The position numbers were made by a program, and so were the translations under genes. Source: Micromonospora carbonacea (GTDB lineage Bacteria; Actinomycetota; Actinomycetes; Mycobacteriales; Micromonosporaceae). Taken from it: DNA of 64,000 bases. Every line of letters starts with the position of its first letter. Positions within the stretch are counted from its first letter, which is position 1. The notes below the pieces were generated by a model, which was not told the DNA's origin, ran no database searches, and was given only the letters and a program-made list of their open reading frames with translations. Below are positions 9,996 through 55,466 of this stretch, in pieces. The DNA is taken from the NCBI RefSeq assembly GCF_014205165.1, contig NZ_JACHMZ010000001.1, forward strand, positions 3,392,501 through 3,456,500, given 5' to 3'.

Positions 9996-10058
9996 CGCCC
10001 TCGCGCCATGCTGGGAGTCGGCGGGTGGATCGGGTCAGCGGTCGTCCGCGGCACGGGC

Positions 10059-10064: not shown

Positions 10065-10070
10065 GACGCC

Positions 10071-30722: not shown

Positions 30723-32270
30723 TCAGGAGGCCGTCCGCGCCGGCACGGCGTCGTCCGCGTCGGCCTCGACGTCGCCGGCCGGGCGGTCGCGGACCATGGC
30801 CAGGACCGCCACCGCGAGCAGGACGGTGATCACGGTGCTGATCGCCCCGACGAGGTTGAGCCCGCCGGTGAAGGCGTCCCGGGCGCCGGCCAGCAGCGCC
30901 GCGCCCGCGTCGCCGGGCAGCTCCTGCGCCGCGGCGACGGCCGCGGCGAGGGTGTCGCCCGCGGCCGAGCCTTCGGGCGCGGTGAACTGGCTGCGGTAGA
31001 CGATCGCGCCGACGCTGCCCAGGATGGCGACGCCGAGCGCCATGCCCAGCTCGGTGCTGGTCTCCGACACGGCGGAGGCGGAGCCCGCCTGCTCGGGGGG
31101 CGCCGACCCGACGACGATGTCGGTGCCCAGCGCGATGAGCGGGCCGCCACCGGCGTAGACGAGCAGGAAGCCGACGACCAGCTGGGTGAGGCCGCCCTGG
31201 CTGTCGAGCAGGGCGAGCATCAGGTGCCCGACCGCCGAGACCGCCAGGCCGGCCGCCACCACCCGGGCCGGCGCGATCTTCGCCGCCAGCACCGGCGACA
31301 GCATGGACGTGACGATCAACGCGAGCGCCGCCGGCAGCAGCCAGAGCCCGGCCCGCAGCGGGGAGAGCCCGACGACGAGTTGCAGGTACTGCGTCACGAA
31401 CAGGTAGGTGCCGCCAGCGATGAGCATGCTGAACAGCATCGCCACCAGCGCCGTGGCCAGCGGACGGTTGCGGAACAGCCGCAGGTCGATCAGCGGGCTG
31501 GCCAGGGCGCGCTGCCGGCGGACGAAGAACACGCCGACGACCAGGCCGACGACGACGGCGAGCAGCGGCAGCGGGCCCGCGTCGTCCTTGGCCAACTCCT
31601 TCAGCCCGAAGATGATCGGCAGGATCGCGGCCAGGGACAGCGCCACGCTGGCCAGGTCGAGCCGGCCGGCGTCGGCGTGCCGGTATTCCGGCAGCAGCCG
31701 CGGCCCCGCCACCAGCAGCACGGCCATGATCGGCACGTTGAGCAGGAACACCGAGCCCCACCAGAAGAACTCCAGCAGCGCGCCGCCGACGACGGGGCCG
31801 AGCGCGACGCCGACCGAGAACATGGTGACCCAGACCGCGATGGCGACGCCCCGCTGCCGCGCGTCCTGGAACATGTTGCTGATCAGCGCGAGGGTGGAGG
31901 GCATCAGGGTGGCCCCGGCGACGCCCAGCGCGGCCCGCGAGGCGATCAGCATGGCCGGCGTGTCGGCGTACGCGGCGACCACGGAGGCGACGCCGAACGC
32001 GGCGGCGCCGATCAGCAGCAGCCGCCGCCGGCCGATCCGGTCACCGAGGGTTCCCATGGTGACCAGGAACCCGGCGATCATGAAGCCGTAGATGTCGATG
32101 ATCCACAGCATCTGCGGGGCGCTGGGCAGCAGGCTCTCGCTGATGTGCGGCACCGCGAGGTGCAGGACGCTCATGTCGATGGAGAGCAGGAGCGTCGGCA
32201 GCGCCAGCACTGCCAGGCCGAGCCATTCCCGGGGGCCCGCCCGGTGCTGCGGTTCGATCGTGGTGGGCAA
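30723..32270 (-). CDS. MFS drug exporter, DHA2 (14-TM) family
   Basis: The 515-residue protein has about fourteen membrane helices, the DHA2 motif around LSIDMSVLHLAVPHI, the loop 2-3 motif GTLGDRIGRRRLLLIG and the antiporter-like helix RAALGVAGATLMPSTLALI. It is the last gene of the biosynthetic operon and probably exports the product and confers self-resistance. The start is a TTG at 32270 with an AAAGGA ribosome site six bases upstream; the next Met is inside helix 1. The start lies about 230 bp within the open frame of the thioesterase gene. Confidence 0.88.
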   Translation of the reverse strand: MPTTIEPQHRAGPREWLGLAVLALPTLLLSIDMSVLHLAVPHISESLLPSAPQMLWIIDIYGFMIAGFLVTMGTLGDRIGRRRLLLIGAAAFGVASVVAAYADTPAMLIASRAALGVAGATLMPSTLALISNMFQDARQRGVAIAVWVTMFSVGVALGPVVGGALLEFFWWGSVFLLNVPIMAVLLVAGPRLLPEYRHADAGRLDLASVALSLAAILPIIFGLKELAKDDAGPLPLLAVVVGLVVGVFFVRRQRALASPLIDLRLFRNRPLATALVAMLFSMLIAGGTYLFVTQYLQLVVGLSPLRAGLWLLPAALALIVTSMLSPVLAAKIAPARVVAAGLAVSAVGHLMLALLDSQGGLTQLVVGFLLVYAGGGPLIALGTDIVVGSAPPEQAGSASAVSETSTELGMALGVAILGSVGAIVYRSQFTAPEGSAAGDTLAAAVAAAQELPGDAGAALLAGARDAFTGGLNLVGAISTVITVLLAVAVLAMVRDRPAGDVEADADDAVPARTAS

Positions 32271-33063
32271 TGTGGATCCTTTCTGGATGTGCCGCCGGGC
32301 GGGGGAGGCAGTGGGTCGTCAGCTGCGTGACCACCGCCTCGGCGACGTGCGACTCGTACAGGTAGAAGTGGCCGCCGGTGAACATCCGGCGGGCGAACGG
32401 CCCCGTCGTCTCCAGCGACCACAGGTGCAGCCGGTCGGCGACGACGATCGGGTCGTCCGCCGCGCCCAACGACAGGATCGGCACGCCGGTGCCGGTGGCC
32501 GGCCGCTCGTAGGTCTCCATGGCCTCCAGGTCGGCGCGGATCGCGGCCAGCGCCGGTCGCACCAGGTCCGCCCGGTGCAGCAGGTCGGGGGCGATGCCGC
32601 CGATGTCCACCAGGTGTTCCAGCAGCTCGGCGTCGGTGCGCCGGTGCCCGTACGGCGGCTCGCTGGGGAAGCAGGGCGGCTGCCGGGCCGACACGACGAG
32701 GTGCCGCGGCGGCAGTCCCGCCCGCTCCATCGCCCGGGTCAGCTCGTAGCCGAGCACGCTGCCGAAGCTGTGCCCGACGATCACGTACGGCAGGGGCGCC
32801 CGCTCGGCGAGGGCACCGGCGAGGCCGTCGACGAGCGCCCCAACCCGCCGCAGCGGCGGCTCGGCGGCGCGCAGGCCTCGGCCGGGCAACTGGGCGACCA
32901 GGAACTCGACCCCGGCGGGGACGACCCGCGTCCAGGACCGGAACGCCGAGGGCCAGCCGCCGGCGTGCGGCAGCGCCACCAGCCGCGCCCACGGGGCGTC
33001 CGGCCCGGCTGCGGCGCCGGCCGGTCGTGCGCCGCCGCCCACCTTCAGCAACCAGGGGTTCAT
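32041..33063 (-). CDS. Type II thioesterase (with read-through tail)
   Basis: The thioesterase fold occupies residues 1 to about 255, with the nucleophile elbow GHSFG (97-101, Ser99), Asp203 in GAADDP and His232 in TGGHFYLYE. Type II enzymes hydrolyse wrong or stalled acyl groups from carrier proteins. Family members end near residue 250, but here no stop occurs until 32041, so about 85 residues of low-confidence tail overlap the exporter gene in another frame. Either the overlap is real or an indel removed the natural stop. The ATG at 33063 follows the deacetylase stop by eight bases, with GAGGAC as ribosome site. Confidence 0.85.
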   Translation of the reverse strand: MNPWLLKVGGGARPAGAAAGPDAPWARLVALPHAGGWPSAFRSWTRVVPAGVEFLVAQLPGRGLRAAEPPLRRVGALVDGLAGALAERAPLPYVIVGHSFGSVLGYELTRAMERAGLPPRHLVVSARQPPCFPSEPPYGHRRTDAELLEHLVDIGGIAPDLLHRADLVRPALAAIRADLEAMETYERPATGTGVPILSLGAADDPIVVADRLHLWSLETTGPFARRMFTGGHFYLYESHVAEAVVTQLTTHCLPRPAAHPERIHIAHHDRTAAPGGPPGMARPGSAGAADAPALHRHERPAPRGAAHQREPAAQRPADAVDHRHLRLHDRRVPGHHGNPR

Positions 33064-33071: not shown

Positions 33072-34169
33072 TCACGCCAGCAACGGATGGTGGGCTTCGA
33101 GGTGGGCCAGCACGCGGTTCTGGTGCGGTCGCAGGCGCTGCCCCGGCAGGTGCTCCAGCGAGTGCAGGAAGGGATCCGGCGGCTCGGGCAGGCCCGCGAG
33201 CGCGGACGCGACGGCCAGCACCAGCGTCGGCTGGTACCACGCCGAGTAGCCGCCCTCGTGGGCCAGGACGATCCGCCCGCCGGTCAGCTCGTCGGCGAGG
33301 GCGCACATCCGGGCCGTCATGGCGTGGAACGTCCGGCTGGTGCACATCATCCGGCCCATCGGGTCGTGGCCACCCGCGTCGAGGCCCGCCGCGACGAGGA
33401 TCAGCTCCGGGCCGAAGGCGCGGGCCGCCGGCTCGACCAGCCGGGTCAGCGCCGCCAGGTACGCCTCGTGCCCCGAGCCCGCCGGCAGCGGCACGTTGAG
33501 GGTGCGGCCCGCCCCGGCGCCCTCCCCCGTCTCGGTGACCAGGCCCGAGGCGGGCGGGAAGAGCCCCTCCTGGTGGATCGAGACGTAGAGGACGTCCGGG
33601 TCGGTGTAGAAGGCGCGCTGGATGCCGTTGCCGTGGTGCACGTCCCAGTCGAGCACCAGCACCCGGCGTGCGCCGTGGCGCTGGGCCGCCCGCGCGGCGA
33701 TCGCCACGTTGTTGTAGAGGCAGAGGGCCATCGCCCGGTCGGGCTCGGCGTGGTGCCCGGGCGGCCGGACGAGGCAGTACGCCCGGTCGTGCCGCCCGTC
33801 GAGCACGGCGGTGGTGGCCTGCACGCAGGCGCCCACGGCCACCCGGGCGGCGTGGGCGCTGTGGTGGTTGACGTGCGCGTACACCCCGGCGTCGCCCGCG
33901 CCGAGCGCGGAGGCCGCCTCGACGCGGTCGACGTGCTCCCGGGTGTGCACGAGCAGCAGGTCGTCGTCGCCGGCCGGGTCGGGGGTGACCTGGGTGAAGT
34001 GGTCCAGCACCCCGGCCATCCGCACCAGCCCCTCGGCGCGGCGCAGGTCGGGGTCGACGGCGAACTGGCGCAGGGGTTCGATGCCCGGGCCGACCGGCAG
34101 GTAGCCCGACCCCTGGCCGGGGTCGTGCCAGAAGCAGACCTCGTGGCTGTACCAGGCGAGATTCGACAT
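33072..34169 (-). CDS. Histone-deacetylase-like zinc amidohydrolase
   Basis: The 365-residue protein has the full arginase/HDAC-fold active site: RPPGHHA with the His pair 139-140, DWDVHHGNG with zinc ligands Asp176 and His178, GHDPMG with the third zinc ligand Asp269, and the catalytic Tyr308 in EGGYS. It resembles bacterial class II deacetylases that act on acetylpolyamines or other N-acyl amines. Placed between PKS genes, a thioesterase and an exporter, it probably removes an N-acyl group from the pathway product or an intermediate, for example the amine from the glycine unit or the released amino ketone. The ATG follows AAGGACG. Confidence 0.88.
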   Translation of the reverse strand: MSNLAWYSHEVCFWHDPGQGSGYLPVGPGIEPLRQFAVDPDLRRAEGLVRMAGVLDHFTQVTPDPAGDDDLLLVHTREHVDRVEAASALGAGDAGVYAHVNHHSAHAARVAVGACVQATTAVLDGRHDRAYCLVRPPGHHAEPDRAMALCLYNNVAIAARAAQRHGARRVLVLDWDVHHGNGIQRAFYTDPDVLYVSIHQEGLFPPASGLVTETGEGAGAGRTLNVPLPAGSGHEAYLAALTRLVEPAARAFGPELILVAAGLDAGGHDPMGRMMCTSRTFHAMTARMCALADELTGGRIVLAHEGGYSAWYQPTLVLAVASALAGLPEPPDPFLHSLEHLPGQRLRPHQNRVLAHLEAHHPLLA

Positions 34170-34270: not shown

Positions 34271-34576
34271 TTACGCGGCGACGGCCGCCCGGGCCCGGGC
34301 CTGCCCGGTCACCTCGGCGACGCGACGCAGGTAGTGCTCCCGCTCCTCGGCCGGGGTGTGCTTGGTCCGGAACGTGGAGTCGAGCCAGGCGAGGACCTGG
34401 TCCACCTCGGCGGGGCCGAGCGGCCGGTCGCCCAGCTCCTTCTCGAACTCGCGGATGCGGGCCGTGGGCGCGAGCACGCCCTCGGCGTAGCCGGACTCGT
34501 CCGGGTTGTGGTTGCGGGTGCAGGCGATGGCCTTCAGGACGGCACCGAAGAAGGCCCTGCTGTCGATGTCGCTCAC
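34271..34576 (-). CDS. Small protein of unknown function in the biosynthetic operon
   Basis: I do not recognise this 101-residue protein. It is soluble and helical, with an N-terminal FFGAVLKAIACTRNHNPDESGYAEGVL segment, a single Cys near residue 19 and a charged C-terminal helix. It lacks the DSL motif of a carrier protein. The GTG at 34576 has a GAGGAG site six bases upstream, so it is clearly translated. It sits between the AOS-containing PKS and the deacetylase, with gaps of about 100 bp on both sides that hold nothing I can recognise. Confidence 0.75.
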   Translation of the reverse strand: MSDIDSRAFFGAVLKAIACTRNHNPDESGYAEGVLAPTARIREFEKELGDRPLGPAEVDQVLAWLDSTFRTKHTPAEEREHYLRRVAEVTGQARARAAVAA

Positions 34577-34673: not shown

Positions 34674-37600
34674 TCAGGCGATGAGCCCGACCCGCCGGCC
34701 GGCGTCGGCGAAGACGGTGACGGCGTGGTCGAGGTCGTCGACGGAGTGGCTGAGGTTGACGATGGTCCGCAGGCGCGGCAGCGCCTTGGGCACGGTGGGA
34801 TAGACGATGGGCTGGACGAAGATGCCCTCGCGCTGGCAGAGCCGGGCCATCTCCTGGGCCTGGCCGGCGCTGGCGCAGATGATCGGCACCACCGGCGTCA
34901 CGCTGCCGAGGGTGTCGAAGCCGAGGCCGCGCAGCTGCGCGCGGTACCGGTCGGTGCGCTCCCGCAGCTCGCCGGTGAGGTGCGGGGCCGCCTCCATGAC
35001 CTCGACGGCCGCCCGCGCGGCGGCCACCTGCATCGGGGTGCCGGCGGCGGAGAACATCCAGCCCCGGGCGTTGTTCTTCAGGGCGAAGATCAGGTCGCTG
35101 GAGCCCGCCACGTAGCCGCCGGTGCTCGGCACCGTCTTGGACAGCGTGCCCATCTTCACCGCGATCCGGGCCGGGTCGATGCCGAAGTGCTCGGTGATGC
35201 CCCGGCCGGTGGCGCCCAGGACGCCGAGGCTGTGCGCCTCGTCGACCATCAGCGGCGCGTCGTGGCGCTCGCAGAGCTCCAGGATGCCGGGCAGGTCGGC
35301 GACGTCGCCGTCCATGCTGAACACCGCGTCGGTGACGACCAGCTTGCCGGCGTCGCCCGCCCGGCGCAGGGCGCGTTCCAGGTCGGCCAGGTCGTTGTGG
35401 GCGTAGGTGATGACCGTCGCGCCGGACAGCCGGTAGCCGTCGAGGATGCTCGCGTGGTTGTAGACGTCGCCGATGACCACGTCGCCCGGGCCGACCAGGG
35501 CGCCGACCGTCGCCACGTTGGCCATGTAGCCGCTGGTGTAGACGATGGCGTCCTCGGCGCCGACGAACCGCGCGATCGCCAGCTCCAGCTCGCGGTGCAG
35601 GTGCAGGGTGCCGGCGAGCAGCCGGACGCCGTGCGCGCCGGTGCCGTGCCGCTCCAGGGCACGCTGCGCCTGGTGGTTGATGTAGTCGTGGCCGATGAGC
35701 CCCAGGTAGCTGTAGGAGGCGAAGTTGAGGAACCAGCGGCCGTCGAACTTGATCCAGGCGCCCTTGGACTCCTCGATGACCGGCTCGTAGAAGTAGTCGT
35801 CCCGCGCGATGACGAGCCGGTCGTCCACCGACAGCGCGTCGATGCGCCGGTCGAGGAACGTGCCGTCGGGGCGGTCGGCGAGCCGGCCGGGCAGGGTGCG
35901 GCGGGGAACCGACCCGCCGGGGGTTGCGGCGACACCGGGCGGCCCGGCGGGCCGGGGCGCGGCCGGCGGCGGCCCGGCCGGCGCCGGGCGGTGGCCGGCG
36001 GCGGGGGCGGGCGCGGGCCGCCCGTTCGCCGCCGCCGGGGGCTGCGCGGCGGCGGGCCGCCCGTTCGCCGCCGGGGGCCGTCCGTCGAGCGCCGCCGGCT
36101 CGGCGGCGCGCCCGGCCGGGCGGCGCACGACGGCGTCGGCGTCGCGGAACCGGTCCCAGTCCGGGACGAACGGGCGGCCCGCCGGCCCGCCCGACCCGAC
36201 GGCCGGGTGCGACGCGGCCGCCACCGGGGGTACGGCGACGGGCGCGGGCGGCCCGGCGGGCCCGGTCGCCGGAGGCGCGGTGGGCGGGGCGGGCGCGGCC
36301 GGGGTGGCGGGGCGCGGGAGCCCCTCCAGATGCCGCAGCAGCGCGCCGACGCCGGGGTGGTCGAAGAAGGTGGCCGGGTCGATCTCGACGCCCGCGCCGG
36401 CCAGCGCGGCGGAGACCTCGACCGCCATCATCGAGTCCAGCCCCAGGTCCAGCAGGTTGTCCTCCGGCGACACCTGGGCGACGTGCAGGGTCCGCTTCAG
36501 GATCGCCGACAGCTCCGGCCACAGCCGGCTGTCGGGAGAGGTCACAGGGGTCGTCATCTCGTCGTCCTTCGGGGTGTCGACTGCGGACAGGACGTAGTTG
36601 CCGGGCGGCAGCCCGAGGGTGTGCCGCAGGAGCGCGACGCCGTCGTCGGCGGCGAGCGCCGGGATGCCGCGCGCCGCCGCCGCGTCGGCGACCCGCTCCC
36701 CCATGCCGACGGCCCACAGGCCCCAGCCGAGGCTGTACCAGGCCTCCCCCTCGGCCCGGCGGCGCGCGGCGTAGCCGTCGAGGTAGGCGTTGGCGCAGGC
36801 GTAGGAGCTCTGGCCGAGGTTGCCGTGCGTGGCCGAGATCGAGGAGAACAGCACCACGTACCCGGGGCGCGCCCGCGCGCCGAACGCCGCGTCGAGCGCG
36901 TGCACGCCGCCGATCTTCGGGGCGAACACCTCGTCGACGCGTTCGGGCGACAGGCTGCGCGCCAGCCCGTCGCGCAGGACGCCGGCGGCGTGGAAGACCC
37001 CGTCGAAGGGCTCCGCGTCGGCCAGCGCCTCGGGCAGGTCGCGCACGTCGGCGGCGAGGAGCCGCAGGTCGCAGGCGGCGGCGAGCTTGTCCAGCCGGTC
37101 CCGCGCCGGCCCCTGCGTCGGCACCGTCCGGCCCACCAGCGTGAGGTGGGCGCAGCCCGCGCCGGCCAGGGACTCCGCCACGTGCAGGCCGATGCCGCCC
37201 AGGCCGCCGGTGATCAGGAACCGGCCGCCGACCGCCCGGCCCGCCGGCTCGCCGGGGGCGGCGTCGACCGCCGGGTGCGCCGGGGCGTACCAGGTGCCGT
37301 CGCGCCAGGCCAGCTCCGCCTCGCCGTGGCGCACCTCGTCGAGCGTCGGCGGGGGCGTGGCACCGCCGAGGCCGAGGTCGACCAGGCGTACGCGGACCTG
37401 CGGGTGCTCGATGCGCAGGGTGCGCGCCAGCCCCCACAGCGCGGTCTGCACGGGCTCGACCGGCTCGCCGCCGGTGACCTGGTGGGCGGCGTTGGTGACG
37501 ATCGTGAGCGCCGGCATCGGCGGCTGCGCGGCGAGCCGCCGGACGAGGGTGAACACGCCTTGGAGGACGGCGGCGGCCTCGTCGGCGTCGCGCACCCCGC

Positions 37601-38639
37601 GCGGCGCGACGTAGACCACCTCGGCCGGCGGGGTCTGCGCGCGCGCCCGGTCGACGCGCTCGTCGTGCAGGTCCGTCGGGTCGAGCAGCACGGGCCCATC
37701 GTCGGGCGATCCGGCGGACAGCTCCCGGGACACCAGCCAGGTGTGGCCGCCCGTCGGCTCCGGCTCTGGCGTCGGGGCGACGGGCTGCCAGGTCACGGCG
37801 GTGACCGACCCGGCGGGGACCGGCCGGTGCCGGGCCGGCGCCCCCGCCGGGTGGTCGGATCCGCCGGCCCGCCCCGGGGCCTTCAGGACGATCCGGTCGA
37901 GTTCGAGCAGCACCTCGCCCTGCTGGTTGCAGACGGTGGCCCGCCCGCGCACCGAGCCGCCGGACCCGCCCGGCGGGTCGGTGCGCTCGACCAGCGCCAG
38001 GACCGTGCCGGTGACCCGCCGCCGCACGGTGACCCGCCCCACGTACCAGGGCAGGCAGGGGCCGGCGGTGCCGTCGTCGAGCATCCCGAGGCACTGGAAG
38101 ACGCTGTCCAGCAGCGCCGGCGGGACGAGGTGCGGGTCGGTCAGCCCGCCGGACGCGCGGAGCAGCGCCAGCATCCGGCCCGGCCCCCGGTGGGCGGCGC
38201 GAATGGCGTGGAAGGTCGGGCCGTACTCGATGCCGCTGCCCCGCCGCCAGTCGGCGACGGCGGCCAGCGGCACCTCGTCGACGCAGCCGGCGCGCAGTTC
38301 GGCCACGTCCAGGTAGTGCGGGGGCGGCAGCGCGCTGCGGGTGGCCCGGGCCCGGCTGTGCGGCGTCGGGGTGGACGCGCCCGGCGCCCAGGAGACGAGC
38401 AGGCACTCCCCGTCGTCGGTCAGGGTGGTCTCGACCTCGACGGTCGTGCCGGGCGGCACCCGCAGCGGCGCGAGGAACGCGACCTGGTCCAGGGACCAAC
38501 TCCCGCCGGGCCGCGCCGCGTCGCACGCGGTGAGCACGGCGTCGACCTGCGCGGCCCCGGCCAGCACGGGCGTCCCGCCGATCCGGTGGTCGCGCAGCAC
38601 CGGGTCGTCGGCGGCCAGCGGGATGCGGTGGCCGCTCAC
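34674..38639 (-). CDS. PKS half-module DH-KR-ACP fused to alpha-oxoamine synthase
   Basis: The 1321-residue protein starts inside a dehydratase (about 1-255; catalytic His in LRDHRIGG, Asp in LLDSVFQ). This is followed by a ketoreductase (270-680; ITGGLGGIG, and Tyr/Asn in SSYACANAYLDGY) and an ACP (about 705-775; LGLDSMM with Ser near 735). A Pro/Ala-rich linker of about 140 residues leads to a complete PLP alpha-oxoamine synthase (about 915-1310; HGTGAHGVRLLAGT, VDEAHSLGVLG, and the Schiff-base Lys1168 in TLSKTV). Family members condense an acyl thioester with Gly, Ala or Ser with loss of CO2. It should receive the chain from KS6-AT of the upstream protein and release an alpha-amino ketone. 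The GTG at 38639 overlaps the glycosylase stop. Confidence 0.93.
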   Translation of the reverse strand: MSGHRIPLAADDPVLRDHRIGGTPVLAGAAQVDAVLTACDAARPGGSWSLDQVAFLAPLRVPPGTTVEVETTLTDDGECLLVSWAPGASTPTPHSRARATRSALPPPHYLDVAELRAGCVDEVPLAAVADWRRGSGIEYGPTFHAIRAAHRGPGRMLALLRASGGLTDPHLVPPALLDSVFQCLGMLDDGTAGPCLPWYVGRVTVRRRVTGTVLALVERTDPPGGSGGSVRGRATVCNQQGEVLLELDRIVLKAPGRAGGSDHPAGAPARHRPVPAGSVTAVTWQPVAPTPEPEPTGGHTWLVSRELSAGSPDDGPVLLDPTDLHDERVDRARAQTPPAEVVYVAPRGVRDADEAAAVLQGVFTLVRRLAAQPPMPALTIVTNAAHQVTGGEPVEPVQTALWGLARTLRIEHPQVRVRLVDLGLGGATPPPTLDEVRHGEAELAWRDGTWYAPAHPAVDAAPGEPAGRAVGGRFLITGGLGGIGLHVAESLAGAGCAHLTLVGRTVPTQGPARDRLDKLAAACDLRLLAADVRDLPEALADAEPFDGVFHAAGVLRDGLARSLSPERVDEVFAPKIGGVHALDAAFGARARPGYVVLFSSISATHGNLGQSSYACANAYLDGYAARRRAEGEAWYSLGWGLWAVGMGERVADAAAARGIPALAADDGVALLRHTLGLPPGNYVLSAVDTPKDDEMTTPVTSPDSRLWPELSAILKRTLHVAQVSPEDNLLDLGLDSMMAVEVSAALAGAGVEIDPATFFDHPGVGALLRHLEGLPRPATPAAPAPPTAPPATGPAGPPAPVAVPPVAAASHPAVGSGGPAGRPFVPDWDRFRDADAVVRRPAGRAAEPAALDGRPPAANGRPAAAQPPAAANGRPAPAPAAGHRPAPAGPPPAAPRPAGPPGVAATPGGSVPRRTLPGRLADRPDGTFLDRRIDALSVDDRLVIARDDYFYEPVIEESKGAWIKFDGRWFLNFASYSYLGLIGHDYINHQAQRALERHGTGAHGVRLLAGTLHLHRELELAIARFVGAEDAIVYTSGYMANVATVGALVGPGDVVIGDVYNHASILDGYRLSGATVITYAHNDLADLERALRRAGDAGKLVVTDAVFSMDGDVADLPGILELCERHDAPLMVDEAHSLGVLGATGRGITEHFGIDPARIAVKMGTLSKTVPSTGGYVAGSSDLIFALKNNARGWMFSAAGTPMQVAAARAAVEVMEAAPHLTGELRERTDRYRAQLRGLGFDTLGSVTPVVPIICASAGQAQEMARLCQREGIFVQPIVYPTVPKALPRLRTIVNLSHSVDDLDHAVTVFADAGRRVGLIA

Positions 38640-39757
38640 AGCCGCAGGTCGAATCTGTCGGTGGCCAGGACCTGGCCGTTGACCTGGATGTCGACGAGGT
38701 GCTCGCCGGGGTAGTAGCGCCGGGTGGAGACCTCCCGCACCGGGTGGGACTTCTCCACCGTCCGGCGCTCGCCGGGGGCCAGTTCGAGGGTGGTGAGCTT
38801 GAAGACCTTCGGGATGCTCTGGCCGTTCTTGCGCACGTGGTGCACGACGTAGTCGACGGCGACGGTGTGCCGACGGCTGTCGGTGTTCTCGACGTCGAGG
38901 CGGATGAGGGTCGACTCGCCGAGGGTCAGCGACCGGGGCGACAGCCGCATCGACGGCACCCGGATGTGCTCGCCGCCGGTGACGCCGACGATCGCGAGGG
39001 CCTCCTGGTTGCCCTTCTTGACCAGGGTGCGCAGCGCGTGCCGGACGATCCAGGCGGTCTCCGGCGTCGGGCTCTCCTGCCGCCAGCGCAGCGCCGTGGT
39101 CAACGCGACGTCGGGGGCGTCCTTGGAGATGTCGTTGAGGTTGTTCGCCACGGACTTGCGGACGTACTCCGAGGGGTCGCTGCGCAGCGGTTCGAGGATC
39201 TCCAGGACGGGCTGCGGGTCCCTGACGAACATGGTGAGCGTGCGCGCCCAGGGCAGCCGGGGGCGGGTGCCCTCGCTGGCCATCCGGCGCACGTTGTGGC
39301 TGGGGTCGCGCGCCCAGTCGGCCATCCGCTTCATCGTCAGGTCGTAGTGCTGCTCGATGTACGGGCGGATGGCGTACTCGGCGGTGTGCCGCTTGGTGAT
39401 CTCGACGAGGGCGTCGAGGGACACCTCCGGGTGGTCCAGGCCGTACTCCTCGACGAACCGGGCCACCGGCATGAGGTACCAGCTGACGTTGAACATCCCC
39501 TCCCCCTCGGCGAGCTCGTCGCCGAGGATCGACACGAGGATGCGCACGCTCTCGGGGTAGTCCTGCGGGAGCCGGCTGCGCAGCCCCTCCGCCAGGACGA
39601 GGACGCGGTCCTTCAGCTCCTTTCCGGGGATCCGCCGTTCGACCTCGACGGCGTAGTCCTCGACATCGAACTCCGGGTGGACCTCGCGGATCTTCCCACC
39701 GATGAGGCGGGCGGCGTCACCGTTGAAGTGGCGCTTGAGTCCGTATTCGCCAGTCAT
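38636..39757 (-). CDS. AlkC-type HEAT-repeat DNA glycosylase with Ig-like C-terminus
   Basis: The 373-residue protein has alpha-helical HEAT-like repeats (about 1-245) with AlkC landmarks: EYAIRPYIEQ, HNVRRMASEGTRPRLPWA, DPSEYVRKSVANNLNDISKD and the repeated DP..VR pattern. A beta-rich Ig-like domain (about 255-373) follows, as in one AlkC subgroup. AlkC/AlkD enzymes excise alkylated bases such as 3-methyladenine without base flipping, and relatives protect producers of DNA-alkylating natural products (azinomycin and yatakemycin clusters, for example). Its start overlaps the PKS stop upstream (ATGA) and its stop overlaps the next PKS start, so it is produced in step with the assembly line. 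Self-resistance is the likely role. Confidence 0.88.
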   Translation of the reverse strand: MTGEYGLKRHFNGDAARLIGGKIREVHPEFDVEDYAVEVERRIPGKELKDRVLVLAEGLRSRLPQDYPESVRILVSILGDELAEGEGMFNVSWYLMPVARFVEEYGLDHPEVSLDALVEITKRHTAEYAIRPYIEQHYDLTMKRMADWARDPSHNVRRMASEGTRPRLPWARTLTMFVRDPQPVLEILEPLRSDPSEYVRKSVANNLNDISKDAPDVALTTALRWRQESPTPETAWIVRHALRTLVKKGNQEALAIVGVTGGEHIRVPSMRLSPRSLTLGESTLIRLDVENTDSRRHTVAVDYVVHHVRKNGQSIPKVFKLTTLELAPGERRTVEKSHPVREVSTRRYYPGEHLVDIQVNGQVLATDRFDLRL

Positions 39758-42700
39758 TGCATCCGGTCCTTCACGACAGAGATTCCCTCAGCGGGCGGGT
39801 AGAGGTGGATCTTAGGTTTGCGTGTTTCCTCCCTCAAGGAAGCGGGACGGCTCGTCGCGGCGATCATCGACTCGCCTCGTCCACTGGGGACCCAGTACGT
39901 CCGGCGTTCGAATGGGTAGGTGGGAATGGTGGTCGTGCGGTGTCCCTTGCCGGTGTGCACCCCCGCCCAGTCCACCTCACCCAGGCCCCGGCTGTAGAAC
40001 TCCGCCACCGCCGCATGCAACTGCGCCTGATCCGAACGGTCGCGCCGCAACGTCGACAACCACACCAACCCCGGATCCGGCAACACCTGCTTCCCCAGAC
40101 CCGCCAACACCGGATGAGCACCGATATCCCAGAACACCCCACCACCAGCCGCACCCACCAACCCCAACGCCTCACCGAACAACACCGGCCGGCGAATCCC
40201 CACACCCCACAACCCGGCATCGGCCACCGATTCCGCGTCATGCCACCCGCCAGTGATCGACGACGCGAAACCAACCCGCGGCGCCGACACCACCACCCGC
40301 GACACCGCCTCCGCAAACGGCTCGACCGCACCCGCCATCGCCACCGAATGAAACGCATGACTCACCACCAGCCGCTGACACCGCAAACCAGAGTTCACGC
40401 AGAACGCCTCCACCACCTCGGCCGGACCCGACACCGTCACACTCCGCGGCCCATTGGACGCCGCCACCTCCAACCCCGGATAAGACCCCACCACCGACCC
40501 CACCACCTCGGCATCAGCGAACACCGCCGCCATCGCCCCACCCGACCGCTGCCCCTGCATCAACGAGCCCCGCACCACCGCCAAACCCAACACATCCCCC
40601 AACCCGAACACCCCCGCCGCCCACGCCGCCGACAACTCACCCACCGAATGACCCACCACCAACCCCGGCCGAACCCCCCACGACTCCAACAACCGCACCA
40701 ACCCCACCTGCACCGCCACAATCCCCACCTGCGCAAACCGCGTCTCCACCAACTCCTCACCCCGACCACCGAACAACAAATCCAACAACGGCACACCCAA
40801 CGACGACACCAACCCCGCACACTCATCCAACGCCGACCGGAACACCGGCTCCACCCCATACAAACCCCGAGCCATCCCCGCATACTGCGAACCCTGACCC
40901 GAAAACATGAACACCGACACCGGCGCCGCATTCACCAACCGACCCACCGACCGAGACCCATCCGCCACCGCCGACAACCCCTCCACCACACCCACACCAT
41001 CCACACCCGACACCGCCACCCGGAACCGATGCGACGCCCGACCCACATTCGCCGTAAACCCGAAATCCCCCAACCCACCCACATCCGACACCGACGACAA
41101 CGCCCGCGCATAATCAGCCGCCAACCGCCGCACACCCTCCTCACCCGACGCCGACACCCGCACCACAAACGACTCCTGAGCAATCGCCTCCCGCCGAGCG
41201 ACAACCGGCGGCTCCTCCAGGATCACGTGAGCATTCACCCCACCCATCCCGAACGCCGACACCGCACCCCGCCGCGGCACACCCACCACCCGAGGCCACG
41301 GCACGACCTGATCGGCCACAAAGAACGGCGACTCCTCGAACCGGATATGATCATTCGGCCGGTTGACGTGCAACGTCGGCGGAATCAGCTCCCGCTCAAA
41401 CGCCAACAACACCTTCACCACACCAGCCAAACCCGCAGCCGGCTCCAAATGACCAATGTTCGACTTCACCGAACCAATCGCACAGAACTGCGTCCGCGAC
41501 GTGAACTCCCGCCACGCCCGCGTCAAACCCTCCACCTCGATCGGATCACCCAAAGACGTACCCGTCCCATGCGCCTCCACCAGACCGATCCCTTCCGGAC
41601 CCACCCCCGCATCCCGCAACGCCGCCAGAATCACGTCCCGCTGTCCGGCGGGGCTCGGGGCGGAGTAGCGGGTGGTCCGGCCGCCGTGGTTGACCGCCGC
41701 GCCCTTGATCAGGCCCCGGATCCGGTCGGCGTCCCGCTCGGCGTCGGCACGGCGGCGCAGCACGACCGCGACCGCGCCCTCCCCGGGCACGAAGCCGTCG
41801 GCGTCGACGTCGAACGCGCGGCACCGGAAGGTGGGCGACAGGGCCCGGAGGTCCTGCATGGACCGGAAGTACTCGGGACTGATCGCGGCGTGCACGCCAC
41901 CGATGACCGCCGTGTCGATGTCGCCGGCGCGCAGGTGCTGGAGGGCCGTGTGCAGGGCCACCAGCGACGACGAGCACAGCGTGTTGACCACGACGCTCGG
42001 TCCGTGCCAGTCCATCAGGTACGACAGCCGGTTCGGGATCATCGCCTCTAGGCCGAGGCCACGCCCGTCGGGCACCCCGTGCCGGGACCGCTCCTCGTGG
42101 TAGTGGTCGTGGCTGTAGGCGATCCACAGGCCGATCCGGTTCTCCCGGTCGCCCCGCCCCATCCGGCCGGCGTCCTCCAGGGCCGCCCAGATGGTCTCGT
42201 ACACGATGCGGGCCTGCGGGTCGATCAGCGGCGCCTCCCGGGCGGAGATCCGGAACGGCACGGGGTCGAACTCGTCGACCCGGTCCAGGAAGGACGCCTG
42301 CGGGACCGGGCCCTCCTCGGCGCGCTGCCAGCGGCCCTCGGGCAGGGCGCGGACGGTGTCGCGCCCCTCGGCCAGCAGGGACCAGTACCCGTCGAGGTCG
42401 TCGGCGGTGGGCACCCGGATCGCGGCGCCGACGACGGCGATGTCGCGCCCGGTGTCCGTACGCCCGGCGGCTGGCGCGTCGTCGACGGTCGGGGGCGCGG
42501 TGACCACCGGCGGCGGCCCGGCGGTCGCGGCCGACGGCACCACCTCGACCGGTTCGGGAGCCACGGCGTGCCCGGACGCGGTCGGCCCGGCAGGGGCAGC
42601 CGGCACGGCGGGCCCGGCGGCCGGGGTCGGGTCGGCGGGCCGGTCCCGGGTCGGGTCGGCGGTGGCCGGGCCCGCCGGCTCGGCCGGCGGTGCCGCCAGC

Positions 42701-45700
42701 GAGGCGACGAAGTCGGGGGCCTCGTCGACGAGGTGCTGGGCGAAGCTGCGGGGCGTCGGATACTCGAAGAAGACGGTCGGGTAGAGCGCCAGGCCGTGTT
42801 CCCGGGACAGCCGGTCGCTCAGCCCGACCAGGCCGACGGAGTCGAAGCCGGCCGAGAGAAACTCGGTGTCGGCGTGCTCGGCGTCCGTGCCGGACAGGGC
42901 CAGGAACCAGGCGAGCGCCCGCGCGACGGGCGACGCCGACGCGACACCGCCGGCACGCGCCGCCGGGGGCGGTGCAGGCGTGGCGGCCGGAGCGGGCGGG
43001 GCCGCGGTGGGGGTGGGCTGCGCGGCCCCGGCCGGAGTGGGCTGCCCGGCCGGGACGGCCGGGGCCGGGGGCGCCGGAGGCCGGGCCGCCGCGACCGGGG
43101 CCGGGGCGGACGCGACGGCCGCCGGGGCCGGGCGGGGCGCGGCGGGGGCCGGCGGCTGGTCGCTGAAGGCGAGCAGGGGCACCCGCTTCGACGAGATGTC
43201 GCCGAAGGTCAGCAGGGGTACGCCCCGCGCGTCGAGGACGACCTGGGTGACCCGGCACGCCTCCTCGTTCCAGAAGGAGACCTCGGTGCGGACGTAGGCG
43301 GCGTCGTCGAGCGGGCCGTGCACGCTCACCCGGTCCGCCGACAGCGGGATGAACGCGGACGCGTGCTCGGTGCCGAAGACGGGGTTGTCCGGGTCGATGG
43401 CGGCGATGGTGACGCTGTCCAGCAGGCCCGGGAAGAGCTGGACGTCCGCCGGGTTCAGCCCGCGCTGCCGGCCGCCCTCGATGCGGGCGAGCGTGCCCCC
43501 GCCCGCGAGGCCGGCCACCCAGGAGATGTTGCGGTAGTACCGGCCGTGGTGGTAGCCGATGCGGCGCAGCCACCGGTAGACCGTGGAGCCGGCGTGCAGC
43601 CGCGAGCAGGCGGCGAGCAGCTCCGGCAGCGGCTCGGTGGTCGGGGCCGGGTCGGGCTGCGGGGCGTACCGGCCGGTGACGAAGGGGGTGCCGTCGGCGT
43701 CGGCGACCGTGAACCGGCCCTGCCCGTCGACCCGGCACAGCACGCGGTGCGCGCCGGTGGGGATCAGCGGCCGGTGGAACAGCACGTCCCGCACCCCGTG
43801 GAACGCGTCGCCGCGCAGCAGCGCGCCCTGGCGCAGGAAGTCGAACCAGGCGACGCCGGGGAGCATGATCCGGCGGTACACGGAGTGCTGGGCGATGGGC
43901 GTCTCGCCCGCCCCGAACACCCGGGAGAAGGCGTACCCGGCCGGGCCCTCGTCGGCGTCCAGGGTGGTCGGGCCGCCGGGCTCGGCGGAACGCAGGGGTT
44001 CCCGCAGGTCCAGCGCGGGCCCGCGGGCCTGGGCGGCGGGCAGCAGCCGCTTGCGCCACCCGCCCGGCCCCTGGAAGGCGGCCCAGTCGACGTCCGCGCC
44101 GGCCTCGTGCAACTCCGCCGCGACGGCGGCGAGCAGCGCGGCGACGTCGCGTTCGTCCGTGGCGTCGGCCAGCCGGGCGCACAGCTCCGGGCCGGCGTCG
44201 GCGTCGGGGCCGGCGGCCGGCTCGACGTCGGTCGCCGCCGGGCCGGTCAGGACCGCGCTCAGCGCCTGCTCCAGCGTGGTACGCCCGTGCGCGAAGTCGG
44301 CGATCGGCGCCCAGCCGGCCGGCAGGTCCACCGCCTGCTCGGGCACGCCGGTGTCGCGCAGCGCCACGGTCAGCACGACCCCGGCGCAGATCCGCAGCAG
44401 CGGCCCGGAGAACGTCGTCACGGGGCTGCCGACGGCGGCCTCGAACCGGGCGACGATCTCCCGCACCGCCGGCACGGCCCCGGTGAGCGCGAGCAGCCAG
44501 GCCGGCGGGGCCGGCGCGGCGGCCGGGCGCACGGTGACGGCGGGCCGCCGCCGGGGGGTCTCGCCGAGCGGGGCGTCGGCGGCGAGCAGGCGGGCCCGCA
44601 GGGCGGCGGCGAGGCCGGCGGCGTCGGTGCCGGTGACGGCGCACCGCACGGCGCGGTGGGGCCGCCCGAGCCGGGCGGTGGCCAGCACGTCGGGCAGGTC
44701 GTCGGCGACCGTCGGGAGGAACTCCAGCCACTGCGCGGCCAGCTCGCGCAGGCCGTCCGGGCTGTCGGCGGACAGGAGCAGCACCTCGGCGGCGCGCCCG
44801 ACGCCGGCCGGTACGGCGGGCGGGCCGGCCGCCTCGGCGACGACGTGCGCGTTGGTGCCGCCGAAGCCGAAGCCGCTCACCGCGGCCCGCCGGGTCGACG
44901 CCGCCGGCCAGGGCGCGGCGCGCGGCGGCAGGTGGAACGGGCTGGCGTCCAGCCGCAGGCGCGGGTTGACGGCGGGCACCGGCGCCCCCGGCACCGTCCC
45001 GTCCCGCAGGCAGAGGACGATCTTGGCGAGCCCGGCCAGGCCGGACGCCGAGTGCAGGTGCCCGATGCGCCGCTTCAGGGAGCCCAGCGCGACGCTGCCC
45101 CGGGCGACGCCGTGCCGACCGAAGACCTCGGTGAGCGCCCGCACCTCGATCGGGTCGCCGATGGCGGTGCCGGTGCCGTGGGTCTCGACGTACTGGACGG
45201 TCGCGGGGTCGACCCGGTCGTAGACGCGGGTGAGGAGCTCGACCTGGGCCTCCAGGTTGGGGGTGGTCACCCCCATGGTGCGGCCGTCGTTGTTGACGCC
45301 GGTGCCGGTGATCGCCCCGAGGATCACGTCGCCGTCGGCGACGGCCGCCGCCATCGGCTTGAGCACCAGGGCGACCGCGCCCTCCCCGGGGACGTACCCG
45401 TTGGCCTTCTCGTCGAAGGTCTGGCACAGCCCGTCCGGGGAGAGCGCGCCGGTGCGGGACAGCAGCACGAAGGTCAGCGGGTCGACCAGCAGGTCCACCG
45501 CGCCGACCACGGCGATCTCGCAGCTGCCGGCGGCGAGGCTCTGGCAGGCCAGCCAGACCGCCGTCAGCGACGACGAGCAGGCGGTGTCGACGACCAGGCT
45601 GGGGCCGGCGAGGTCGAGCCGGTCGGACAGCCAGGCCGCGACGAAGTTCTGCGAGCGCCCCCAGAGGGCCGCCGGGACCGGCGGGCCGGCGGCCGGGGCA

Positions 45701-46119
45701 CCGGCCCGGCCGGCGGGGGCGACGCCGCGGCCGTGGTCGAAGCCGTAGGAGTTCATCCGCGCGCCGACGAAGACGCCCGCGTCGAGCCGCCGCCGGGCGG
45801 CCAGGTATCCGGCGTCCTCCAGGGCGCGGGCCCCGACCTCCAGCATGACCCGCTGCTGCGGGTCGAGCAGGACGGCGTCGGCCGCGGTGAGCCCGAACGC
45901 CTCGTGGTCGAAGGAGAACGGGTCCTGGAGGAAGGCCCCCCGGTGGTGGGTGCCCTGGTGGTCGCCGTCGCCGAGGTAGAGGTCGCGGGCCCAGCGGCTG
46001 GGCGGGACCTCGTCGACCTCGACCGAGTCGTGGGTCAGCATCCACCGCAGGTCGGTCACGTCCTCGGCGCCGGGAAGCCGTACGGCCATGCCGATCACCG
46101 CGATCCGATCGTCCGTCAT
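39754..46119 (-). CDS. PKS: KS5-(AT relic)-DH-ACP-KS6-AT
   Basis: The roughly 2121-residue protein holds KS5 (46100-44830; DTACSSS, ETHGTGT, RRIGHLHSA) and a degenerate AT-like stretch (about 44530-44240) lacking GHSxG. DH (43960-43170; His in IAQHSVYRRIMLPG, Asp in LLDSVT) and ACP (42910-42720; GFDSVGL) follow, then KS6 (42440-41210; NTLCSSS, EAHGTGT) and a cis-AT (40910-39910; GHSVGE and HAFHS, predicting malonyl-CoA). It ends after the AT without DH or ACP, so its last module is completed by the protein encoded at 34674-38639. The ATG at 46119 has AAGGAG ten bases upstream; an ATG at 46155, one base after the previous stop, is the alternative. The KS6-AT part is nearly identical to KS2-AT. 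Confidence 0.9.
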   Translation of the reverse strand: MTDDRIAVIGMAVRLPGAEDVTDLRWMLTHDSVEVDEVPPSRWARDLYLGDGDHQGTHHRGAFLQDPFSFDHEAFGLTAADAVLLDPQQRVMLEVGARALEDAGYLAARRRLDAGVFVGARMNSYGFDHGRGVAPAGRAGAPAAGPPVPAALWGRSQNFVAAWLSDRLDLAGPSLVVDTACSSSLTAVWLACQSLAAGSCEIAVVGAVDLLVDPLTFVLLSRTGALSPDGLCQTFDEKANGYVPGEGAVALVLKPMAAAVADGDVILGAITGTGVNNDGRTMGVTTPNLEAQVELLTRVYDRVDPATVQYVETHGTGTAIGDPIEVRALTEVFGRHGVARGSVALGSLKRRIGHLHSASGLAGLAKIVLCLRDGTVPGAPVPAVNPRLRLDASPFHLPPRAAPWPAASTRRAAVSGFGFGGTNAHVVAEAAGPPAVPAGVGRAAEVLLLSADSPDGLRELAAQWLEFLPTVADDLPDVLATARLGRPHRAVRCAVTGTDAAGLAAALRARLLAADAPLGETPRRRPAVTVRPAAAPAPPAWLLALTGAVPAVREIVARFEAAVGSPVTTFSGPLLRICAGVVLTVALRDTGVPEQAVDLPAGWAPIADFAHGRTTLEQALSAVLTGPAATDVEPAAGPDADAGPELCARLADATDERDVAALLAAVAAELHEAGADVDWAAFQGPGGWRKRLLPAAQARGPALDLREPLRSAEPGGPTTLDADEGPAGYAFSRVFGAGETPIAQHSVYRRIMLPGVAWFDFLRQGALLRGDAFHGVRDVLFHRPLIPTGAHRVLCRVDGQGRFTVADADGTPFVTGRYAPQPDPAPTTEPLPELLAACSRLHAGSTVYRWLRRIGYHHGRYYRNISWVAGLAGGGTLARIEGGRQRGLNPADVQLFPGLLDSVTIAAIDPDNPVFGTEHASAFIPLSADRVSVHGPLDDAAYVRTEVSFWNEEACRVTQVVLDARGVPLLTFGDISSKRVPLLAFSDQPPAPAAPRPAPAAVASAPAPVAAARPPAPPAPAVPAGQPTPAGAAQPTPTAAPPAPAATPAPPPAARAGGVASASPVARALAWFLALSGTDAEHADTEFLSAGFDSVGLVGLSDRLSREHGLALYPTVFFEYPTPRSFAQHLVDEAPDFVASLAAPPAEPAGPATADPTRDRPADPTPAAGPAVPAAPAGPTASGHAVAPEPVEVVPSAATAGPPPVVTAPPTVDDAPAAGRTDTGRDIAVVGAAIRVPTADDLDGYWSLLAEGRDTVRALPEGRWQRAEEGPVPQASFLDRVDEFDPVPFRISAREAPLIDPQARIVYETIWAALEDAGRMGRGDRENRIGLWIAYSHDHYHEERSRHGVPDGRGLGLEAMIPNRLSYLMDWHGPSVVVNTLCSSSLVALHTALQHLRAGDIDTAVIGGVHAAISPEYFRSMQDLRALSPTFRCRAFDVDADGFVPGEGAVAVVLRRRADAERDADRIRGLIKGAAVNHGGRTTRYSAPSPAGQRDVILAALRDAGVGPEGIGLVEAHGTGTSLGDPIEVEGLTRAWREFTSRTQFCAIGSVKSNIGHLEPAAGLAGVVKVLLAFERELIPPTLHVNRPNDHIRFEESPFFVADQVVPWPRVVGVPRRGAVSAFGMGGVNAHVILEEPPVVARREAIAQESFVVRVSASGEEGVRRLAADYARALSSVSDVGGLGDFGFTANVGRASHRFRVAVSGVDGVGVVEGLSAVADGSRSVGRLVNAAPVSVFMFSGQGSQYAGMARGLYGVEPVFRSALDECAGLVSSLGVPLLDLLFGGRGEELVETRFAQVGIVAVQVGLVRLLESWGVRPGLVVGHSVGELSAAWAAGVFGLGDVLGLAVVRGSLMQGQRSGGAMAAVFADAEVVGSVVGSYPGLEVAASNGPRSVTVSGPAEVVEAFCVNSGLRCQRLVVSHAFHSVAMAGAVEPFAEAVSRVVVSAPRVGFASSITGGWHDAESVADAGLWGVGIRRPVLFGEALGLVGAAGGGVFWDIGAHPVLAGLGKQVLPDPGLVWLSTLRRDRSDQAQLHAAVAEFYSRGLGEVDWAGVHTGKGHRTTTIPTYPFERRTYWVPSGRGESMIAATSRPASLREETRKPKIHLYPPAEGISVVKDRMQ
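39903..41643 (-). repeat. Near-identical KS-AT block, copy 1
   Basis: About 1.74 kb coding for the second half of KS6 plus the AT matches 55601-57344 almost base for base, with scattered substitutions and a 3-base insertion in the other copy. The coding strand here uses TTG, GGT, GGG and GTG codons and even TTT, TAT and GAT, unlike the CTC/GGC/GTC-rich surroundings. One line (40741-40800) counts 34/60 G+C against 53/60 for 44521-44580. Confidence 0.95.
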
Positions 46120-46156
46120 GGTCGCGTCGCTCCTTCCGTCCCGCTCGGTGGGCATG

Positions 46157-49100
46157 TCAGTGGCCCTGCTGCTGGCCGTGGACGAGCAGGGGCCGCAGCA
46201 GCGCGCCGAGGTCCGGGGCCGGCGCGGGGGCCGGTCCGTCCGCGTCGGGCGTCGGCGTGCCGGACCCGGCCGCCTCCTGCGGGGCGGCGGGCTGCGCGCC
46301 GGCGACGCCGGGCAGCCGGGCCGCGAGGTCGGCCATGGTGCGGGCCCGCATCACCAGGGACGGGTCGACGGTGATCCCGCCGAGCCGTTCGATGGCGTTG
46401 GTGAGGTCGACGATGACCAGCGAGTCCAGGCCGAGGTCCGGCAGGGGGCAGTCGCCGGGGTCCTCGCCGAGCACGTCGACGAAAGCGTCGCGCACCAGCG
46501 TGTACGTGGGGCCGGGCGCGGCGGCCGTCGCCGGCGCGGGCTCGGCGGCGGGTCGCGCGGCCGACGCCGGTCGCGGTGCCGCCGGGCCCGGTGCTGTCGG
46601 GGCCGGGGCCGCCATGGCCGGTGCTGTCGGGGCCGGCTGGGCGGATGCCGTCGGGGGCGCGGTCGGCGGCGCGCTGTCCGGCGCGGCGGCGCCAGGGAAC
46701 ACGACGCCCCCGCCCGTGCGCAGGTGCGTGGTGAATCCGGTCAGCGCCTGGTCGAGGGTGATCGAGTGCCCGGCGGCCACGGACTCGTCGGCCTCCATGC
46801 CGATGCCGACCCAGTTCGGCCAGGCGTGCGCGGTCACCGTCGTGCCGTCGTCGCCGGCGGCCTCGGCCAGCGCCAGCTGGTAGGCGTTGGCCAGGGCGTA
46901 GTCCACCAGTCCCCGGCCGGCGGGCGGCAGCGCGCCGGCGATCGAGGAGACCAGGGCGACGTAGCCCGCGCCCTGGGCGCGGGCGAGCCGCGTCACGTTG
47001 CGGGAGCCGGCGACCTTCGGCGCGGCCACCCGGGCCGCCTCCGACCAGGGCCGGCGACGCAGCGACCCGAACGGGTTGACCCCGCCGGAGCAGTGCACCA
47101 CGCCGAGCAGCCGGCCCCACCGGCTACCGAAGGACGCGGCGGCGTCGGCGAGCGCGGCGGCGTCGGCGACGTCGCACCGGAGGTAGTCGACCTCGGCGTG
47201 CGGCCGCAGCTGCGCCAGGAACGCCTCGGCGCCGGGGTCGACCGGGGACCGGCCGACGATGCCGACGCGTCGCGCGCCGCCGCGCACCAGGTGCGCGACG
47301 AGCCGCCGGCCGATCGCGCCGAGACCGCCGGTGACGAGGTGGTACCCGTCGCCGTCCAGCGGGGTCGCCGGGCCGGGCCGGGCCGCGACCTGCTCCGGGG
47401 CGTACCGGATGCCCCGCCGGTAGGCGACGGCGGTGTTGACGCCGGGGCGCAGCGCGGCGAACTCGGCGGCGATCTGCCGGGCGCGGGTCTCGGCCGGGTC
47501 GCCGGCGTCGAGGTCGAGGGCCGCGACGGCGAACCGGTGCTCGGCGGCGGCGGCGCGGACGGTGAACGCCCGCGCGGCGGCCGCCGGGTCGAGCAGGGCC
47601 CGGTCGGCCTCGTCGACCGGGGCCGACCGGTGCTCGACCCAGACCACCCTCGCCTGCGCCGGGAGGGTCGCCGTGACCTCGCGGAGCTGCTCCCAGAAGC
47701 CGCTCAGGTCCGGTTCGGCGTCGGTGGGCGCGGCCGGGTCGGCGACCACGACGAGGGCGCGGGCGGGCGCGCCCGGGGCGGCGATGTCGGCGCCCTGGGC
47801 GGACAGCGCGGCGGAGACGACGCCCTCGGTGGCCCGGTCGGCGGCGACCACCCGGACGGTGACGCCGTAGGCCGATCCACCGGTGCGGGGCGCGGTGGCC
47901 CGCCACCGCGTGCACAGCGCCTCGGGCGCGGCGGCGGTGGCTGTAGGAGCGCCGGCCGACGCGGCGGGCTGCGGCGCGGTGGACGACGGTGCGGCCGCCG
48001 CCGTCGTCGCCACGGTCGCCGGGGCGCTGCGGGTGTGCCAGTAGTGGCCCCGGGCGAACGGGTAGGTGGGCAGCGCGACGATCCGGGAGCCCGGCGCGGA
48101 CAGCGCCGCCCAGTCGATGCCGGGGTGGCCGCGCCGGGCCAGGTCGGCCAGCGCCTCGTGCCAGACGTCCGGCGGCCCGTCGGGAGTGGCCGGCGGCGCG
48201 GCGGCGGCCAGGGCGGCGTCGACGCGGGCCACCGGGAGGTGGCCGTCGGCGACGGCCCGGAGCTGCTCGGCGAGGGCCGGGCCGGTGGGGCCGGTGACCG
48301 CGCTCTGGTAGCCGAGGGGGGAGCGGCCGACGTTCGCAGTGTGGCAGAGGTCGGCGGTCCGCCGGTCGTCGTCGGAGGCGGCGAACACCTCGGCGTACGC
48401 GGCGGCGAGCCGGCGGACCGCCTCCTCGCTGGCGGCGGAGACCCGGACCAGGTGCGATCGCGGCGGCACCGGCTGGCGCGGGGCGGCGACGGGCGGCTCC
48501 TCCAGGATCACGTGGGCGTTCACCCCACCCATCCCGAACGCCGACACCGCACCCCGCCGCGGCACACCCACCACCCGAGGCCACGGCACGACCTGATCGG
48601 CCACAAAGAACGGCGACTCCTCGAACCGGATATGATCATTCGGCCGGTTGACGTGCAACGTCGGCGGAATCAGCTCCCGCTCAAACGCCAACAACACCTT
48701 CACCACACCAGCCAAACCCGCAGCCGGCTCCAAATGACCAATGTTCGACTTCACCGAACCAATCGCACAGAACTGCGTCCGCGACGTGAACTCCCGCCAC
48801 GCCCGCGTCAAACCCTCCACCTCGATCGGATCACCCAAAGACGTACCCGTCCCATGCGCCTCCACCAGACCGATCCCTTCCGGACCCACCCCCGCATCCC
48901 GCAACGCCGCCAGAATCACGTCCCGCTGCGCCGAACTGCTCGGCACCGTCAACCCGCTCGTCCGGCCACCGTGGTTCACCGCCGTTCCCCGGATCACCCC
49001 ACGGATCCGGTCCCCGTCACGCACCGCGTCGGCCAAGGGCTTGACCACCACCGTGACCACACCCTCCCCCGGCACGAACCCGTCCGCCGCCGCGTCGAAC

Positions 49101-55456: not shown

Positions 55457-55466
55457 GTTCCCTCGC

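Follow-up and report, generated by a model that had tools for sequence, protein, structure and literature searches.

An AlkC-type DNA glycosylase gene within a polyketide assembly-line operon of Micromonospora carbonacea: a candidate for self-resistance by base excision

Why should a gene for a DNA repair enzyme lie between two genes of a biosynthetic assembly line? The question is raised by a window of 64,000 nucleotides from Micromonospora carbonacea (assembly GCF_014205165.1, contig NZ_JACHMZ010000001.1, positions 3,392,501 to 3,456,500), the whole stretch of DNA analysed here, in which a gene for an AlkC-type DNA glycosylase, alkC, stands between two polyketide synthase (PKS) genes. A preliminary description, made from the sequence alone, had predicted self-resistance to a DNA-alkylating product. 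We consider it probable, at roughly three chances in four, that alkC is a dedicated self-protection part of the cluster and serves self-resistance by base excision. At the level of sequence, this assessment draws on the AlkC-type fold of the protein and the conservation of its presumed active site, the overlaps with both neighbouring genes, the co-occurrence of gene and cluster, and relatives that have outlasted the assembly line. On such a reading, the product of the cluster would be genotoxic.

The interval first given for the gene was exact; it is to be read on the minus strand, and its plus-strand reading contains no AlkC. The protein matched the Pfam family DNA_alkylation (PF08713) with 28.6 bits at a cut-off of 21, and a search of NCBIfam matched no family. 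The AlkC chains 5vi0 and 5vhv of the PDB matched it over its full length with 235 bits, as against 38 bits for AlkD2-type chains, and its identity to the AlkC of Pseudomonas fluorescens is 34%. The predicted model is a helical solenoid followed by a C-terminal beta domain; this immunoglobulin (Ig)-like tail has its strands at residues 265-372, and the alignment to 5vhv runs through residue 373. Among 89 aligned rows (31+7+42+8+1), which were chosen by hand, E162 and D209 were invariant in all 89, as were R131, R157, R158, R165 and R243 when arginine and lysine conservation was followed; a scan of the same rows for residues that distinguish the clade gave six positions. E162 and D209 are the counterparts of E156 and D203, which we take to be the catalytic acids of the Pseudomonas enzyme. 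The AlkC identity, the AlkC-like motifs and the Ig-like tail that had been claimed are thus borne out, and the HEAT-type solenoid and presumed catalytic acids for which structure prediction had been proposed are found in the model and the alignment. Judged by sequence and predicted fold, the gene is a bona fide AlkC, and excision activity is predicted. It encodes the only PF08713 protein of the source genome. Membership of the YtkR2/AlkD family was rejected, since AlkC structures score far higher than AlkD-type ones; AlkZ identity was set aside by family assignment alone, without a search of its own.

Both PKS neighbours overlap alkC, as the preliminary description held, by 4 nucleotides (nt) on each side. 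The upstream PKS ends in KS-AT, and the downstream protein consists of DH-KR-ACP followed by a pyridoxal phosphate-dependent alpha-oxoamine synthase (AOS); consequently, a single PKS module is split, with alkC between its halves. The 4-nt overlap of alkC with the AOS gene was kept in 37 of the 38 cluster loci examined, the sole exception being a locus from Chloroflexota. Five of these loci are sequence repeats of another locus, and without the repeats the overlap was kept in 32 of 33. Because it is kept so widely, the junction is not a matter of chance.

We then consider how far AlkC and the cluster travel together. A search with an AlkC alignment gave 54 loci in named genomes: 27 had PKS or AOS genes on their visible flanks, one was a remnant and 26 had none. 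At an AlkC identity of at least 58% the corresponding numbers among 36 loci were 26, one and nine; the upstream side was out of view at four loci that end near the gene (L008, L014, L023, L032) and the AOS side at five (L010, L013, L015, L018, L022). Streptomyces gave the sharpest pattern. AlkC was present at E<=1e-20 in 42 of 343 genomes (45 loci), with 11 loci at 73-78% identity, one, a second copy, at 69%, and 33 at no more than 44%. An AOS at 80-85% identity was present in 11 of the 343 genomes, exactly the 11 with an AlkC of at least 73%; the remaining 16 AOS matches listed had at most 49% identity. The two genes were separated by 2.6-3.2 kb on one contig in 10 of these 11 genomes, and in the other (G578) they lay on separate contigs. 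One genome carries two close AlkC copies on a single contig (G324, contig C3, at 150824 and 707189), of which the 78% copy lies in the cluster and the 69% copy about 555 kb away.

The same association was seen beyond Streptomyces. In a class sample of 394 genomes, four had an AOS match at E<=1e-100, three of them at 76% or more and the fourth at 48%; AlkC adjoined the AOS in all three of the former. The genus sample of 37 genomes had AlkC in four, within the cluster in the source genome, G007 and G036 and outside it in G030 (74% identity). A Rieske oxygenase gene was present in 18 of 18 cluster genomes examined, these having been chosen because they hold the cluster; in the nine in which it shared a contig with AlkC, the two lay 24-26 kb apart in eight and roughly 10 kb apart in the ninth (G698). 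A related cluster was present in a metagenome-assembled genome (MAG) of Chloroflexota. Homologues equally frequent away from clusters, the pattern named beforehand as contrary to self-resistance, were not what we found for the close clade, which stands mostly in this same cluster. The dedication of AlkC to the cluster is well supported by these comparisons.

Some close relatives stand alone. In a tree of 56 different AlkC sequences (seven duplicates dropped; short or frame-broken copies, namely L043, L046, L057, L059, L060 and the Bacillota forms, and many distant copies omitted), AlkC genes without a nearby PKS were nested in cluster clades, mostly on longer branches: those of S. termitum (L028), S. 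hydrogenans (L029), four Nocardiopsis loci (L034, L036, L037, L039) and P0062. The label "cluster" changed nine times on the tree, compared with a mean of 17.9 when labels were shuffled, and none of 500 shuffles was as low. A long branch leads to the Chloroflexota AlkC (L041), whose position is unsure. We searched 12 hand-picked genomes, comprising nine orphans, one remnant and two positive controls, for the cluster genes. The nine orphan genomes (L028, L029, L030, L034, L036, L037, L039, L040, L043) had no AOS above 40% identity genome-wide and no Rieske homologue at E<=1e-60; both positive controls matched.

Traces of a former assembly line were found beside some of these genes. Upstream of L034, about 245 nt resemble the end of the PKS gene, with a score of 154.5 against 12.5 for the best of 100 shuffles, and downstream 26 nt resemble the AOS start (21.0 against 17.5 in shuffles). 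The upstream trace at L028 is weaker (23-32 against 13.5), and there is none downstream. The remnant, in a Pseudonocardia MAG (L038, 8179-9876), keeps its AlkC intact, with a shortened DH...AOS frame behind it; its AOS gene start scored 57.0 against 17.5, and the search for cluster genes gave only an AOS fragment in that genome. Omega was 0.14-0.36 in six orphan-to-cluster pairs, 0.07-0.28 in six cluster-to-cluster pairs and 0.44 for the remnant; the pairs for omega, like those for the scar comparison, were hand-picked, and each path includes some evolution from before the cluster was lost, so that these values give only a hint of continued constraint on orphan AlkCs. In S. verrucosisporus (L043), which has no cluster, the orphan AlkC frame is in pieces (10001-11118). 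A purely biosynthetic gene should decay once its assembly line is lost, whereas a protective gene can stay useful. The persistence of orphans without an assembly line therefore favours a protective role over a purely biosynthetic one.

These observations bear on four other explanations. AlkC could have been recruited for biosynthesis, its fold binding the growing chain or bridging the halves of the split module. Its constant position between those halves and the conserved overlap with the AOS gene would fit such a role, which we nevertheless hold to be improbable: a like split in the same line, where the gene at 55467-64000 ends in KS-AT and that at 46157-55516 starts with DH-KR-ACP, has no intervening protein, the presumed catalytic residues are invariant, and close relatives persist, at the omega values given above, in the nine genomes that lack the AOS and Rieske genes of the cluster. 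It is highly improbable that alkC is an ordinary housekeeping gene lying in the cluster by chance, even though it encodes the sole PF08713 protein of the genome and looks functional, and many genomes carry other AlkCs as solitary genes. The 11-to-11 co-occurrence in Streptomyces, apart from the other AlkCs, and the rarity of AlkC in the genus, with three of its four occurrences in the cluster, disfavour a mere passenger, as does the junction kept in nearly every locus. We give the least credence of all to the idea that alkC belongs to a mobile set carried in the cluster and guards against the toxins of other organisms. A linear Streptomyces plasmid does bear one copy of the cluster, and orphans do exist, but alkC is enclosed within the operon of the assembly line and does not stand at its edge.

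The fourth explanation is that AlkC repairs general or by-product damage linked to production, for example from reactive species or from formaldehyde released by the Rieske oxygenase or by formyl loss, rather than adducts formed by the product. The lesions for which AlkC is known are small and positively charged (PMC4433238). The Rieske oxygenase is a constant companion, and a formyltransferase domain opens the line. To our knowledge, however, many oxygenase-bearing clusters lack AlkC, and the proposal rests on a by-product of which none is known; we regard it as unlikely.

Self-resistance by base excision would work as follows. The assembly line would release a polyketide primed with formyl-glycine as an alpha-aminoketone, and this compound or a derivative of it would alkylate DNA bases. 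Acting without base flipping, AlkC would hydrolyse the N-glycosidic bond of the adduct, after which ordinary base-excision repair would complete the removal. Since the frames overlap, the protector would be made whenever the assembly line is made, and the MFS pump is likely a second protective layer. Several points weigh against this account. That the product acts on DNA is an inference. The co-occurrence counts come from genomes related by common descent and so do not represent independent events. One Streptomyces strain (WAC08241, L057) has the cluster with its AlkC frame in pieces (10001-11115) and its MFS gene broken too; the broken frames here and in L043 could reflect either decay or assembly error. 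No scar was found beside L029, L030, L036 and L039 (L037 and L040 lay outside the comparison), and scarless orphans may in part be old independent AlkCs. Finally, the specificity of AlkC is described as being for alkylpurines with a positive charge (PMC4433238), and the AlkC of Bacillus cereus is reported to have released neither hedamycin nor trioxacarcin adducts (PMC9040887, PMC8934636); an adduct that is bulky may therefore not be accepted.

A more specific and rather doubtful version, which we put forward tentatively, makes the product a masked genotoxin in the manner of colibactin. During assembly the glycine amine would carry the N-formyl group as a cap, and the AOS would install an alpha-aminoketone at the other end. 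An HDAC-like hydrolase would then strip the formyl group, and the freed amine would close onto a ketone. The cyclic imine so formed would be reactive and alkylate bases, and AlkC would remove the adducts, which would be positively charged.

The remaining genes of the cluster (Table 1) follow in the order FAD enzyme, Rieske oxygenase, nonribosomal peptide synthetase (NRPS)-PKS, two PKSs, AlkC, AOS, 101-residue protein, HDAC-like hydrolase, thioesterase and MFS transporter. The NRPS gene starts outside the window, at a window-equivalent position of about 64979. Its formyltransferase domain precedes a glycine-type adenylation (A) domain and a PCP, which together start the assembly line; the A-domain code, read by hand as DILQLGLIWK, presumably specifies glycine. 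The glycine-primed PKS of the preliminary description therefore stands as to its A domain, the formyltransferase having been overlooked, and N-formyl-glycine is the predicted primer. There are six KS for two AT domains across the line, and the other modules are therefore probably loaded in trans. The HDAC-like amidohydrolase is near in sequence to HDAC6, to bacterial HDAH and to small-molecule amidases such as propanil hydrolase, and is a possible deformylase or deacylase of the cluster product. Streptomyces sp. NBC_00158 has the same gene order annotated on a linear plasmid, the one record with the cluster in our plasmid searches; the 101-residue protein is 55% identical over 91 residues to the protein in the same position there. 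Two KS-linker/AT stretches in different PKS genes (39886-41256 and 55584-56957, minus strand) share 97% protein identity, which suggests a recent duplication or gene conversion between modules. Away from the cluster, a LanC-like protein (PF05147, 59 bits) is encoded at 10071-11435 on the plus strand, directly after two genes (7937-9995) read by eye as putative oligopeptide ABC-transporter ATPases.

Table 1. Features of the alkC locus in window coordinates.
Feature	Coordinates	Strand	Description
MFS efflux transporter	30723..32270	minus	DHA2 type
Thioesterase	32317..32985	minus	matched part; exact gene ends not fixed
HDAC-like amidohydrolase	33072..34169	minus	class II type, 365 aa
Small conserved protein	34271..34576	minus	101 aa, no Pfam match, between AOS and HDAC-like genes
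DH-KR-ACP-AOS protein	34674..38639	minus	1321 aa, alpha-oxoamine synthase end
alkC end / DH-KR-ACP-AOS gene start	38636..38639	minus	GTGA overlap, 4 nt
alkC, AlkC-type DNA glycosylase	38636..39757	minus	373 aa, ATG start
PKS gene end / alkC start	39754..39757	minus	ATGA overlap, 4 nt
PKS	39754..46155	minus	KS-DH-ACP-KS-AT, 2133 aa
PKS	46157..55516	minus	3119 aa; initial DH-KR-ACP, two KS, second KR, more DH and ACPs, no AT
NRPS-PKS	55467..64000, continues past window	minus	formyltransferase (off window)-A(Gly)-PCP-KS-DH-ACP-KS-AT
Rieske oxygenase and FAD (flavin) oxidoreductase	window-equivalent 64976-67470, off window (L062 6477-8971)		cluster head

How does this locus compare with known systems? 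With the AlkC of P. fluorescens (5vhv, 5vi0), the protein shares the whole-chain fold, the Ig-like tail and the presumed catalytic residues; it differs in being encoded in a biosynthetic cluster, the comparison having been made on proteins and not on genomic place. The closest functional analogies are the cluster-encoded self-resistance glycosylases, of which two kinds are described in the available text of the sources, AlkD/YtkR2 and AlkZ/YcaQ (PMC9040887, PMC8934636, PMC8626424, PMC9570651, PMC9854587). YtkR2 of the yatakemycin cluster is likewise a HEAT-like glycosylase that is protective in its own system (PMC9570651, PMC9854587). AlkZ and its relatives, from the azinomycin, hedamycin and trioxacarcin clusters, provide an analogous base excision for self-protection (PMC9040887, PMC8934636) and differ in belonging to the HTH_42 superfamily (PMC9040887), unrelated to AlkD/YtkR2; PMC9854587 calls them "evolutionarily unrelated". 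Of the two HEAT-glycosylase precedents named earlier, yatakemycin therefore holds and azinomycin does not, its protector being AlkZ (PMC9040887, PMC9854587). As far as these sources are available, AlkC enters the self-resistance literature as a comparison enzyme or a reference-list entry (e.g. PMC8626424), and the "AlkC" of PMC11201982 is a nucleoside. Among open-licence papers, judged by title and start of abstract, which is no proof of absence, we recognised no report of AlkC in cluster self-resistance; papers of the same kind, judged in the same way, yielded none on the product of this cluster.

As for the assembly line, the starting module of conglobatin is described as a formyltransferase-glycine one that resembles that of oxazolomycin (PMC4504003), and the formyltransferase-A(Gly)-PCP start is common to those lines and the present one. 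Those lines end otherwise, conglobatin in a thioesterase domain; ours ends in an AOS and has AlkC. Streptomyces albus J1074 has an AOS protein, D6B3S9, which a survey of 2013 lists with the order KR-CP-AOS; the type I PKS cluster that holds it is predicted to be Gly-Mal-Mal, and the available part of the survey's text mentions no glycosylase there (PMC3870968). Going by that description and not by sequence, we would guess that the cluster of D6B3S9 is perhaps of the same family.

If self-resistance by AlkC is true, AlkC would be the third glycosylase family in this function, after AlkD/YtkR2 and AlkZ, and would give resistance-guided mining a further kind of gene to look for. Where glycosylases are encoded in clusters, they have pointed to genuine DNA-damaging antibiotics, and here the protector would predict the activity of an uncharacterised metabolite from a widespread cluster. 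The cluster would also test whether AlkC can process a natural-product adduct. Should the masked-genotoxin version hold, the same kind of genotoxin would be spread across Micromonospora, Streptomyces, Nocardiopsis, Nonomuraea, Actinokineospora and a Chloroflexota lineage, and an orphan alkC would mark former producers or exposed neighbours. The orphan alkC genes, one with a clear assembly-line scar, provide a natural experiment on protection that outlasts production.
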